Shown: in pieces, positions 8,337-12,301 of the stretch
Layout of the letters: the number at the start of each line of letters is the position of its first letter
Position numbering within the stretch: position 1 is the stretch's first letter
Origin: a virus
Length of the DNA stretch: 24,616 bases
Reading direction: 5' to 3' (one strand)
Virus record (IMG/VR): IMGVR_UViG_3300030098_002514
Span: 3,990-28,605 of that record
Program-made: the position numbers and the translations under genes
The notes under the pieces: generated by a model
Seen by the model: only the letters and a program-made list of their open reading frames with translations
The model's database searches: none
Told to the model about the DNA's origin: nothing

Positions 8337-8513
8337 ATGAACGATACAGAAGTAATCGCTTTAGAACCCCCAATTGAAGTAATGTATAACGAAGAACAAA
8401 ATTTTTTATTCCGTGGAGCTGAAGAGCTAAACGGTCGTGTAGCAATGCTTGGCGTTGTTGCAGCTCTTGGAGCTTACTTAACAACTGGTCAAATTATTCC
8501 AGGAATATTTTAA
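8337..8513 (+). CDS. hli: High-light-inducible protein (Hli)
   Basis: This 58-residue protein has a single chlorophyll-binding-type membrane helix. The conserved Hli core is in residues 29-57: [20 protein letters not shown] followed by TTGQIIPGI, with the ExxNGRxAM signature at E30, N32, G33, R34, A36 and M37. Hli proteins protect photosystem II and chlorophyll under stress. Phage copies are usually thought to sustain photosynthesis during infection. The stop overlaps the psbA start as TAATG (8511-8515), so hli and psbA are probably translated together. The N-terminal 25 residues are variable and acidic, as in other phage Hli proteins. The stretch just upstream of the start has no clear ribosome-binding site. 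Confidence 0.93.
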
Positions 8514-9589
8514 TGACAACAGCAACCTTAGTACAAGAAAAAAATTCTTGGCAGAGGCTTTGCGACTGGGTTACATCTACTGATAACCGCCTCTATGTGG
8601 GGTGGTTTGGTGTCTTAATGATACCTTGCTTAATCACAGCAGCAACCGCATTCATAATAGCTTTTATAGCTGCCCCGCCAGTCGATATTGACGGCATTCG
8701 TGAACCAGTCTCAGGCTCTTTGCTTTATGGAAACAACATCATCTCGGGAGCAATCGTCCCGTCATCTAATGCAATCGGTCTTCACTTCTACCCAATCTGG
8801 GAAGCTGCAACCCTCGACGAGTGGTTGTATAACGGAGGACCATATCAACTTATTGTGTTCCACTTTCTCATCGGTATCGCAGCATACATGGGACGACAAT
8901 GGGAACTTAGTTATAGATTAGGTGCCCGACCCTGGATACCAATAGCTTACTCAGCACCTGTTGCTGCAGCTTATGCAGTCTTCCTTGTTTACCCATTCGG
9001 TCAAGGGAGTTTTAGTGATGGTATGCCTCTTGGTATTTCTGGGACTTTCAATTTCATGTTCGTATTCCAAGCCGAACATAATATCCTCATGCATCCTTTC
9101 CACATGCTCGGTGTTGCTGGGGTATTCGGCGGTGCTCTTTTCTCTGCAATGCACGGAAGTCTCGTTACTTCCTCACTGGTTAGAGAAACGACTGAGAATG
9201 AATCCCTTAATTATGGATATAAATTCGGACAGGAAGGAGAAACCTATAACATCGTTGCAGCTCACGGATACTTTGGACGTTTAATTTTCCAATATGCTTC
9301 TTTCAATAATAGTCGGGCTCTTCATTTCTTTCTTGCTGCTTGGCCAGTCACTTGTATCTGGCTTACCTCCATGGGAGTTTCTACGATGGCATTTAATCTC
9401 AACGGATTCAATTTTAATCAGTCCGTTAATGCTGCAAATGGAGCCGTTATCCCAACTTGGGCTGACGTATTAAACAGAGCTGATCTTGGTATGGAAGTAA
9501 TGCATGAAAGAAATGCACATAATTTCCCATTAGATTTAGCGGCTTCTGAAACTTCTGAAGTTGCTTTAGTAACACCAACTATAGGTTAA
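8513..9589 (+). CDS. psbA: Photosystem II reaction-centre D1 protein
   Basis: This full-length D1 of 358 residues would replace the photodamaged host subunit in thylakoids during infection. Residues correspond to standard D1 numbering minus one because the N-terminus is one residue short. Present are Y160 (Tyr-Z), D169, E188 and H189, H197 (P680 ligand), H214 and H271 (iron ligands), S263 (Q-B site), and H331, E332, H336, D341 and A343 of the manganese cluster. The C-terminal 15 residues after A343 are the CtpA-cleaved extension. Q129 (standard 130) is the D1:1-type residue, with Glu marking the high-light form. The [13 protein letters not shown] and [10 protein letters not shown] stretches look phage-like. 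The gene seems more GC-rich than the late tail genes. It is joined to hli by a TAATG overlap. Confidence 0.98.
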
Positions 9590-9593
9590 TAAA

Positions 9594-10103
9594 ATTTTTA
9601 ACAGTTTAACAAAATATATAAAAGAGACTGTTGACTCTGTTAAGTATATCTTACAGGGTCTTTCAGTTACCTTTGACCATATGGGTAGACGGCCAATAAC
9701 AGTTCAATATCCTTATGAAAAACTAATACCATCTACTCAATACAGAGGAAGAATTCATTACGAATTGGATAAATGTATTGCATGTGAAGTTTGCGTAAGA
9801 GTATGTCCTATAAATTTACCAGTTGTCGATTGGGTAATGAATAAGGAAACTAAAAAGAAAGAACTTCGAAATTATTCTATTGACTTTGGTGCTTGTATAT
9901 TTTGCGGAAATTGTGTGGAATATTGTCCAACTAATTGTCTTTCAATGACCGAAGAATATGAACTGGCTGCATTTGATAGGCATAGCTTAAATTACGACAA
10001 TGTTGCATTAGGTCGTCTACCTACAAACGTTACACTTGATCCTAGTGTGAAAGCATTAAGAGAACTTGCTTACCTTCCTAAAGGTGAAATGGATCCACAT
10101 TAA
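9594..10103 (+). CDS. ndhI: NDH-1 subunit I (NdhI), with N-terminal helix upstream of the first ATG
   Basis: This protein carries two 4Fe-4S ferredoxin-type motifs, [12 protein letters not shown] and [12 protein letters not shown], and the NdhI stretches [20 protein letters not shown] and [20 protein letters not shown]. NdhI belongs to the peripheral arm of cyanobacterial NDH-1, which carries cyclic electron flow around photosystem I and respiration. The first ATG is at 9681 (140 residues), but the same frame upstream encodes [20 protein letters not shown] then GLSVTFDH, matching the amphipathic NdhI N-terminal helix. From stop TAG 9582 to ATG 9681 there is no ATG, GTG, TTG or CTG. ATT 9594 best fits the family length, and TAGG at 9582-9585 could be its ribosome site. 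The product stops at EMDPH and lacks the roughly 40-50-residue tail I recall in host NdhI. Confidence 0.9.
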
Positions 10104-10108
10104 CCACG

Positions 10109-10175
10109 TACGTTTATCCATCAAGGACGCATGAAACCTAAGCATGAAACGGGGCTTAGGTAATTGAGGTGTGTT
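10109..10175 (+). promoter_or_regulatory. Glutamine-II (downstream-peptide) riboswitch candidate
   Basis: This leader precedes a very short gene and fits the downstream-peptide RNA motif of marine cyanobacteria and phages, which binds glutamine. Parts seen: an E-loop-like element CGTTTATCC (10111-10119), ATCAA, then GGACGC (10125-10130); a stem CCTAAGC (10137-10143) pairing with GCTTAGG (10154-10160), extended by A10136-T10161; and a possible pseudoknot between loop TCAA (10121-10124) and TTGA (10164-10167). That TTGA overlaps the Shine-Dalgarno GAGG (10166-10169), 6 bases before ATG 10176, so ligand-stabilised pairing could block translation. The motif match is from memory of the consensus. 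Confidence 0.8.
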
Positions 10176-10283
10176 ATGTCTCCAGTAGAATTGCAAGCTC
10201 GCATCGAAGAGCGTAAACAATACGAAAGAGAAGAGAAACTCAAATATCGTGGCATCACTTATTACAAAAAATTTAAATCTTAA
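10176..10283 (+). CDS. Riboswitch-controlled small peptide (35 aa, YRG motif)
   Basis: The 35-residue peptide begins MSPVELQARIEERKQYEREE and ends KLKYRGITYYKKFKS. The KYRGITY segment resembles the YRGxxY core of DUF4278-like cyanobacterial and phage peptides. It has a proper Shine-Dalgarno (GAGG) placed inside the riboswitch. In the downstream-peptide class such conserved peptides follow the aptamer. Their function is not established, but regulation by glutamine suggests a role in nitrogen metabolism, perhaps binding a host enzyme. The highly charged N-terminal helix with Glu, Arg and Lys would suit protein-protein contact (inference). Confidence 0.78.
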   Translation: MSPVELQARIEERKQYEREEKLKYRGITYYKKFKS

Positions 10284-10285
10284 CT

Positions 10286-10651
10286 ATGAAATTAATTGCT
10301 CTGTCTACCCTAGCGGCTGTTGCTGCTACCTCTGCAATCCCGGCGAGAGCTGGGTTTTATGTCAACGTAGAGACTAATGGATCAAGTGTTGGAAGTGATT
10401 TCCAATCAAGAACTACTGAAACTCATATTGGGTATGAAGGTGATATTGGACAACTAGGTTGGTACCTACAAGGTGGACCAGCATTCTTAGGTACGGATGC
10501 AGCCGATGGCACCACGGAACTTAGTGGGAAAATCGGTGGCACTGTTCAAGCTACAGAAAAGCTTGGCATCTATGGTGAACTAGCGGTTCAATCAAATGAA
10601 ACTACGGACACAGTTTACGGTTCCAAACTCGGAGCCAAATGGAGTTTCTGA
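10286..10651 (+). CDS. Secreted small beta-barrel-like outer-membrane-type protein
   Basis: This 121-residue protein starts with a clear signal peptide, MKLIALSTLAAVAATSAIPA, with an AxA cleavage site at ARA before GFYVNVET (predicted mature chain about 98 residues). The mature part is rich in alternating hydrophobic/polar beta-strand patterns and Gly turns (HIGYEGDIGQLGWYLQGGP, GKIGGTVQATEKLGIYGELA), and it ends in KWSF. A C-terminal Phe is the usual recognition signature of outer-membrane beta-barrels. It starts 2 bases after the riboswitch peptide, so it may be co-transcribed and subject to the same upstream control. Possible roles include changing the host surface or excluding other phages; none is shown here. 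I recall similar genes in marine cyanophages. Confidence 0.8.
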   Translation: MKLIALSTLAAVAATSAIPARAGFYVNVETNGSSVGSDFQSRTTETHIGYEGDIGQLGWYLQGGPAFLGTDAADGTTELSGKIGGTVQATEKLGIYGELAVQSNETTDTVYGSKLGAKWSF

Positions 10652-11140: not shown

Positions 11141-12301
11141 ATGGCTCAACAGAGTACAGACCATCAAGCGTCAGTAACCGTTGGAACCGCCGCGAATGGT
11201 GCGGTTGCCAATAATACTGAACGCAGAGCCCTTTGCTTGAAACTTTTTAGTGGAGAGATGTTCAAAGGGTTCGAGCATAACTCAATTGCTCGTGATCTCG
11301 TAATGAGAAGAACACTTAAAAATGGTTCCTCATTACAATTCATCTACACAGGACACACCAAAGCTGAATTCCATACACCTGGAAACAGCATACTTGGTAA
11401 CTCCGATGGAGCACCTCCAGTAGCTGAAAAAACCATAAAATGCGATGACCTCCTTATCAGCTCAGCTTTCGTGTATGAGCTAGACGAGACACTTGCACAT
11501 TATGAGTTGAGAGGAGAAATATCTAAGAAGATTGGATATGCACTTGCTCAAAAATATGACCGACTAATCTTACGTGCCGTAACTCGCGGTGCAAGAAAAG
11601 CTAGTCCAATTACTAAGACTAACTTTGTAGAACCCGGTGGAACTCAGATCCAAGTTGGAGCTGGTTCTGATGCTGACGACGCTCTTAACGCAGATAAGCT
11701 TGTAACTGCATTCTATGATGCAGCTGCAGCTCTTGATGAAAAAGGAGTCAGTACTGACGGAAGAGTGGGGATTTTGAATCCAAGACAATATTACGCTCTT
11801 ATCCAAGAAGTTGGTTCAAACGGTCTCATTAATAGAGACGTACAAGGTACAGCCTTGCAGTCTGGTAACGGCATCGTTGAGATAGCTGGTATCAAGATAT
11901 TCAAGTCTATGAATGTGCCTTTCTTCAGTAAGTATGGTACTAAGTATGCTCCAGCATCTAGTCCTACAGCTGGTACTGACCCAGCAACAATAGATCCAGG
12001 TAACACAGGATCCTTTGTTGGAGAAGCCACTGAAGATGCTCGCAGTTCCGTAACTGGTATCAACAACGATTACGGTAATGCAACTTCATTCGCCAACTCA
12101 TGCGGACTTATCTTCCAACGTGAAGCCGCTGGTGTTGTCGAAGCAATAGGTCCACAAGTACAAGTAACCTCTGGTGATGTTTCAGTCATCTATCAGGGTG
12201 ATGTGATTCTTGGAAGACTTGCAATGGGTGCAGATTACCTAAACCCTGCAGCTTCTGTAGAACTATTCGCTGGTACTACAACTAAGCCTGCTGCTTTCTA
12301 A
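11141..12301 (+). CDS. Major capsid protein, T7 gp10-like
   Basis: This 386-residue protein matches T7 gp10A (345 residues) by position, size and N-terminal similarity (ERRALCLKLFSGEMFKGFEH compares with ALFLKVFGGEVLTAF in T7). It would form the icosahedral shell with an HK97-type fold. Typical segments include the DDLLISSAFVYELDETLAHY block, the conserved NPRQYYALIQ near the middle, and a long Ala/Gly-rich C-terminal region. It is preceded by the structured leader and followed by a strong terminator, so it can be expressed at high level on its own transcript. Confidence 0.95.
   Translation: MAQQSTDHQASVTVGTAANGAVANNTERRALCLKLFSGEMFKGFEHNSIARDLVMRRTLKNGSSLQFIYTGHTKAEFHTPGNSILGNSDGAPPVAEKTIKCDDLLISSAFVYELDETLAHYELRGEISKKIGYALAQKYDRLILRAVTRGARKASPITKTNFVEPGGTQIQVGAGSDADDALNADKLVTAFYDAAAALDEKGVSTDGRVGILNPRQYYALIQEVGSNGLINRDVQGTALQSGNGIVEIAGIKIFKSMNVPFFSKYGTKYAPASSPTAGTDPATIDPGNTGSFVGEATEDARSSVTGINNDYGNATSFANSCGLIFQREAAGVVEAIGPQVQVTSGDVSVIYQGDVILGRLAMGADYLNPAASVELFAGTTTKPAAF

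Follow-up and report, generated by a model that had tools for sequence, protein, structure and literature searches.

The riboswitch locus

We describe here a glutamine-sensing leader and the micropeptide gene behind it in a cyanophage. The window analysed is a stretch of 24,616 nucleotides corresponding to positions 3990-28605 of a 28,605-base virus record (G000:C1); it covers the central part of the genome of a T7-like cyanophage. The gene order is scaffold, hli, psbA, ndhI, the riboswitch and its peptide gene, a gene for an outer-membrane beta-barrel protein (OMP), two small ORFs, and the major capsid gene; the phage origin and the neighbors hli, psbA (D1) and ndhI given in a preliminary description of this DNA are borne out by gene matches in the window. 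The features, in window coordinates, are as follows.

8337-8513, + strand: hli, upstream (phrog_178, E 1.9e-18)
8513-9589, + strand: psbA (D1), upstream (TIGR01151, E 9e-220)
9681-10103, + strand: ndhI, upstream (TIGR00403, E 1.1e-80, profile 33-172; frame open to ~9591)
10108-10160, + strand: glutamine-II aptamer, RF01704 (cmscan)
10111-10115, + strand: pseudoknot 5' strand CGTTT (partner 10147-10151)
10117-10127, + strand: P1 hairpin TCC-ATCAA-GGA (from the sequence; the two inner base pairs are kept in 100%, with C-G/U-A compensation)
10128-10131, + strand: linking strand CGCA, with the equivalents of C17, G18 and C19 of the ligand site (PMC6698751)
10137-10143, + strand: P2 5' strand CCTAAGC (compensatory changes among relatives at all seven P2 pairs)
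10147-10152, + strand: pseudoknot 3' strand AAACG and the G equivalent to G41 (alignment, covariation)
10154-10160, + strand: P2 3' strand GCTTAGG (sequence, covariation)
10166-10169, + strand: Shine-Dalgarno (SD) GAGG, six bases before the ATG and five after P2
10176-10283, + strand: 35-aa YRG micropeptide (ATG 10176, TAA 10283; pN/pS 0.45 in its class)
10286-10651, + strand: cyanophage OMP, PF24653 (Pfam 129.6 bits), a possible co-regulated gene
11141-12301, + strand: major capsid protein (PF21703, E 1.2e-72), a conserved downstream anchor of synteny

We also note that the ndhI frame encodes a full-length N-terminus back to ~9591 with no ATG, GTG or TTG before the ATG at 9681. Translation could begin at an ATT at 9594; L029, a near-identical contig, shares the feature, and an ATG is present in the phage ndhI of L126.

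Anatomy and covariation of the aptamer

When both strands were searched with 4227 families, the only match above cut-off in the window was RF01704, at 40.3 bits (E 8.7e-7) over the full length of the model (1-60 of 60) and against a gathering cut-off of 33 bits; the aptamer is present as a single copy across the 28.6-kb record. The assignment to the glutamine-II class made in the preliminary description is thus upheld, and the pieces it named are all present, namely CGTTTATCC at 10111-10119, GGACGC at 10125-10130, and the 7-bp stem P2. The reading of CGTTT and GGACGC as an E-loop is mistaken, since CGTTT is instead a pseudoknot strand paired with AAACG in the loop of P2, and GGACGC, when set against the glutamine-II structure, comprises the 3' strand of P1 and the ligand-binding linking strand (PMC6698751). 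The pseudoknot had been overlooked, and a TCAA/TTGA pairing proposed instead. The observation is therefore confirmed as real and correctly named, with the detail of the switch being wrong.

In the glutamine-II crystal structure the contacts to the ligand are made by C1, G2, G18, C19, C39 and G40 (PMC6698751), and their equivalents in the window (C10111, G10112, G10129, C10130, C10150 and G10151) are all retained and lie in invariant columns, with the linking strand CGCA invariant in the 18 aligned aptamers. Most RF01704 members have the pseudoknot CGTTC/GAACG, whereas the window has CGTTT/AAACG with both sides altered, such that the pair U10115-A10147 stands in place of the usual C-G as a compensatory change. 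The same double change is present in L092 and in the isolate SS120-1, and the host glutamine-II copies have CGTCC/GGACG. In a set of 17 distinct aptamers from phages and hosts, the pseudoknot helix is 98.8% paired, with two pairs changed on both sides. Compensatory changes are found in 11 of the 14 pairs of the whole structure compared with a shuffled mean of 7.6, and covariation scores 0.578 in the real alignment and 0.237 when shuffled.

The start region

The preliminary description had proposed that a loop TCAA pairs with a TTGA overlapping the SD. The two motifs are present (10121-10124 and 10164-10167), but the pairing is not conserved, with 19 of 102 relatives having a four-base loop/SD match in their own leader versus 15.5 expected after partners are swapped, and we reject it as a switch element since it occurs at no more than chance level. 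Loop/SD duplex energies are likewise -5.20 kcal/mol for own and -5.24 kcal/mol for swapped pairs, and a more general search for a conserved anti-SD within the 5' strand found none, own pairs being no stabler than swapped or shuffled ones. In the window leader, SD accessibility is nearly equal in the free and the aptamer-constrained folds, and no expression platform is readable from them. A start-codon CATG, considered as a possible sign of pairing between the linking strand and the start, is present in 31 of 102, which gives no clear signal, and the idea was set aside.

The start itself is distinctive. An SD-like triplet precedes 78 of 84 phage YRG ORFs, compared with 37 of 247 for the starts of six other kinds of gene on the same contigs, an enrichment that fits control at the level of ribosome binding.

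The YRG peptide

The peptide encoded directly behind the aptamer (MSPVELQARIEERKQYEREEKLKYRGITYYKKFKS) carries the YRG motif, and both its length of 35 residues and the motif agree with the preliminary description. The values of pN are lower than those of pS in all 66 pairs of the 35-aa class, and in 310 of 351 pairs of a 17-aa class, and every one of the 75 distinct phage peptides among the matches listed carries YRGxxY; YRG was a search criterion, and the second tyrosine was not part of it. From the 66 pairs and the constancy of YRGxxY, the substitution patterns indicate that the 35-residue ORF is a real gene. Phage peptides among the matches listed are mostly either 13-20 or 32-39 residues long, and in most public records the gene is unannotated; where it has an annotation, this is as a hypothetical protein.

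Comparisons with known families place the peptide near DUF4278 (PF14105). The window peptide matches phrog_5049 with an E of 9.5e-4 and has no Pfam match to DUF4278 at E values up to 1. For most of its sister peptides DUF4278 is the best Pfam match, below the cut-off of 25.3 bits in all but one, the peptide of L033, which scores 29.9 bits. A profile of the long phage peptides with the window copy left out finds the window peptide at 3e-19, and the same profile finds a host 65-aa DUF4278 protein at 2.8e-6, with the best shuffle at 0.01. At the level of sequence, the phage YRG peptide family is thus linked to DUF4278 by way of close relatives of the window peptide, which we view as a single DUF4278-type YRGxxY repeat following a charged and probably helical N-terminus. 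No match resulted when a host 33-aa peptide was compared directly with the window peptide by BLAST, and a PDB search with a host DUF4278 protein matched no solved structure.

Occurrence among T7-like cyanophages

A pattern scan of viral contigs gave at least 120 matches, and with isolates added at least 127 phage aptamers were collected; among the matches listed, 122 of 127 have a YRG or FRG ORF starting within 110 bases. Of the five that do not, L058, L075 and L097 end at a contig edge near the aptamer, in L077 the ORF is cut off, and L099 is an apparent exception. At ~6051 of L099, on the reverse strand, the aptamer is followed by an ORF lacking a readable YRG (MNTLLLVKQQLEKAARLRKAQLASLHGHRYCVA), which appears to be either a frameshift or an exception.

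In many T7-like cyanophages the aptamer-peptide unit is located just upstream of the capsid gene, with the scaffold/psbA region on its other side. The Rfam cut-off was passed by 14 of 15 isolates chosen for similarity, and by one (SS120-1) of eight further T7-like isolates chosen by capsid similarity; no unit was found at the Rfam level in P60, Syn5, S-CBP2, S-CBP3, S-CBP42, S-B28 or S-SRP01. Since it is absent from several isolates, the unit is not essential to T7-like cyanophages. S-SBP1 (L277, ~2001-2041) has the 3' half of the aptamer only (model 25-60, 19.6 bits), in what appears to be a decayed copy.

The preliminary description had placed the riboswitch in a photosynthesis cassette, and while the neighboring genes are as it stated, the tie of the unit to psbA and ndhI is weakened. 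In SS120-1 and S-TIP28 the riboswitch is present although the stretch shown contains no psbA, and the unit is still upstream of the capsid gene; conversely, psbA is present and the unit missing at the Rfam level in S-B28 and S-CBP3, and also in S-SBP1 with its half aptamer. The gene ndhI adjoins the unit only in the window phage and the near-identical L029. The unit is therefore neither universal nor tied to psbA or ndhI.

The T4-like form

A YRG peptide family, phrog_545, is present in 228 phage records, largely T4-like, and in Syn9, S-SM1, S-RIM2 and S-RS29 the gene is situated between nrdB and talC. The T4-like YRG gene has two repeats and its leader two glutamine-type aptamer units (L290, L292-L294, L295-L414). 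In compact loci with no enclosed ORF (L304, L318, L396 and others), RF01739 is passed by the tandem when it is read as a single aptamer with the second unit inside its P3 arm. In 91 of 124 matches found (84 distinct), the second unit is opened up such that one aptamer arm encloses a whole ORF of 53-66 residues (gp197 in Syn9), whose ATG follows the start of CGTTC by 10 bases and which ends, in nearly all, 16 bases from the start of GGACGCA, with its terminal DAND-stop being aptamer sequence. The enclosed ORF is under protein selection, with pN lower than pS in 526 of 528 pairs, and the linker carries the SD GGAG in 93 of 94 ORF-bearing cases compared with one of 13 others. In the enclosed-ORF forms CGTTC/GAACG is kept in 84 of 84 and the four leading pairs of the stem in 99-100%, which leaves little variation with which to test the pairing. 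We found no description of this arrangement in the open-licence literature.

With the SD of the enclosed ORF in the aptamer linker and its last codons being aptamer sequence, the aptamer would be expected to fold only while the enclosed gene is not being translated, and vice versa. We tentatively suggest, with slightly more doubt than confidence, that cyanophages share a glutamine-gated module whose minimal YRG output mimics host DUF4278 proteins, and that the T4-like version would be a two-gene switch in which aptamer folding and enclosed-ORF translation are exclusive and the YRG gene is turned ON.

Proposed function and alternatives

We consider it probable that the glutamine-II riboswitch of the cyanophage controls translation of the 35-residue YRG peptide, and that the peptide is a mimic or competitor of DUF4278 proteins that tunes host nitrogen. 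Glutamine binding and the ON direction would be those known for the glutamine-II family, which is linked to DUF4278 proteins and has an ON response (PMC6316151; PMC6698751); a Kd for glutamine of 190 uM was obtained with the calorimetry construct of the crystallised RNA (PMC6698751). When host glutamine is high, L-glutamine would enter the pseudoknot helix (10111-10115/10147-10151), with G10129 and C10130 in the groove, and would lock the aptamer, and by analogy with the family, ribosomes would then initiate at the GAGG/ATG immediately 3' of P2; the position of the SD is compatible with ON-type control. The family link, the host copies and the linkage in the literature together suggest that the peptide is a one-repeat DUF4278 mimic, a minimal form of the host DUF4278 proteins made behind the same riboswitch, and it would most likely act in trans, mimicking or competing with these proteins such that host nitrogen handling may be tuned during synthesis of the capsid and other late proteins.

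There are several alternatives to consider. We regard it as unlikely that the peptide ORF serves chiefly as a control leader, with the riboswitch gating OMP, and perhaps later genes, through termination-reinitiation at the peptide stop. Across 19 loci the OMP ATG is located -4 to +36 bases from the peptide stop, mostly 0-6, with a gap of two bases in the window and no SD in any, and OMP could be co-regulated given that its ATG is mostly within six bases of the stop. However, SD-like triplets are rare elsewhere too (2 of 73 MCP, 2 of 55 ttA and 1 of 11 OMP starts; Fisher p 0.35 and 0.09), and the missing SD was rejected as proof of coupling because most genes in these phages have none. Many phages have no OMP behind the peptide, and only the capsid gene 0.3-1 kb further on, yet YRGxxY is kept, which argues against a mere leader, as this would not need those residues.

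It is less likely still, and in our estimate improbable, that the peptide is a glutamine synthetase (GS) inactivating factor similar to IF7 or IF17 that is produced when glutamine is high and switches off host GS. In its favor are the small size of the peptide and its high content of arginine and lysine, as well as the coverage of the IF17 N-terminus by DUF4278 and the glutamine riboswitch of gifB, but a review describes this part of IF17 as not required for function and as serving stability (PMC6316151), so that this reading is weaker than that of a DUF4278 mimic. A host nitrogen-metabolism enzyme as the target of the peptide, raised in the preliminary description, is a speculative candidate. 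Moreover, marine picocyanobacteria have no GS inactivating factors (PMC8092223), many phage peptides have just 13-20 residues and are barely more than a YRG repeat, and Pfam, PHROG and NCBIfam gave no match to a GS-inhibiting domain in the 35-aa peptide. A passive host relic, in which aptamer and ORF were acquired without function for the phage, would accord with the loss or absence of the unit in several T7-like isolates and the half aptamer left in S-SBP1, but is highly improbable in view of the base-pair compensation and coding selection, the placement ahead of the capsid gene that is conserved in many genera, and recurrence in T4-like phages.

These results indicate that sensing of nitrogen status by RNA, which is known in marine picocyanobacteria, is widespread in their viruses, where it is tied to one tiny and strongly conserved peptide. 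P-SSP7 (AY939843), in which the unit is unannotated and the YRG ORF lies at about 20.59-20.64 kb, and MED4 form a culturable pair with which use of the glutamine signal and the role of the YRG repeat are directly testable. DUF4278 is a domain of unknown function, and the viral form of 13-39 residues is the smallest version to study.

Relationship to known systems

The window copy shares with the RF01704 family the aptamer fold, the ligand-site nucleotides, an SD just 3' of P2, and a small ORF directly downstream, and differs in being phage-borne and in having a short P1 with a 5-base loop and the CGTTT/AAACG pseudoknot. Six Prochlorococcus genomes have three to five glutamine-II copies each, and these precede proteins of 33, 65 and 51-56 aa, mostly with YRG repeats. 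The Prochlorococcus DUF4278 proteins are likewise small, carry YRGxxY and are behind the same riboswitch class, but at 33-65 aa they have two or three YRG-type repeats, whereas the window peptide has one and is below Pfam detection. We also note that one Prochlorococcus copy sharing GGACGCATGA with the phage aptamers (L264-L270, L128-L244) leads a 51-56-aa protein lacking YRG, whose N-terminus resembles T4-like phage YRG proteins (33% over 39 residues); this host gene is a possible source of the phage genes.

The Downstream-peptide motif, another name for the glutamine-II class, precedes ORFs of 17-100 residues, one of which is Yfr6 (PMC2864571; PMC1242208). Yfr6 of Prochlorococcus MED4 and SS120 has the same leader class and a 33-aa ORF of similar peptide size, although unlike the phage unit it is host chromosomal and is described as a possible dual-function RNA (PMC1242208, PMC2864571). 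The gifB/IF17 system of Synechocystis similarly has a glutamine riboswitch ahead of a DUF4278-containing protein, but its aptamer is of another class, glutamine-I, and the phage peptide lacks room for the GS-inhibiting part of IF17. Phage leaders that sense glutamine have also been reported in T4-like cyanophages and in marine phages such as Melnitz, although these are different phage groups, and in Melnitz the leader is linked to tmRNA and a glnA-like motif is reported (PMC9602691, PMC9004378). Glutamine riboswitches and their DUF4278 partners were thus already known, and the window copy adds one more case.
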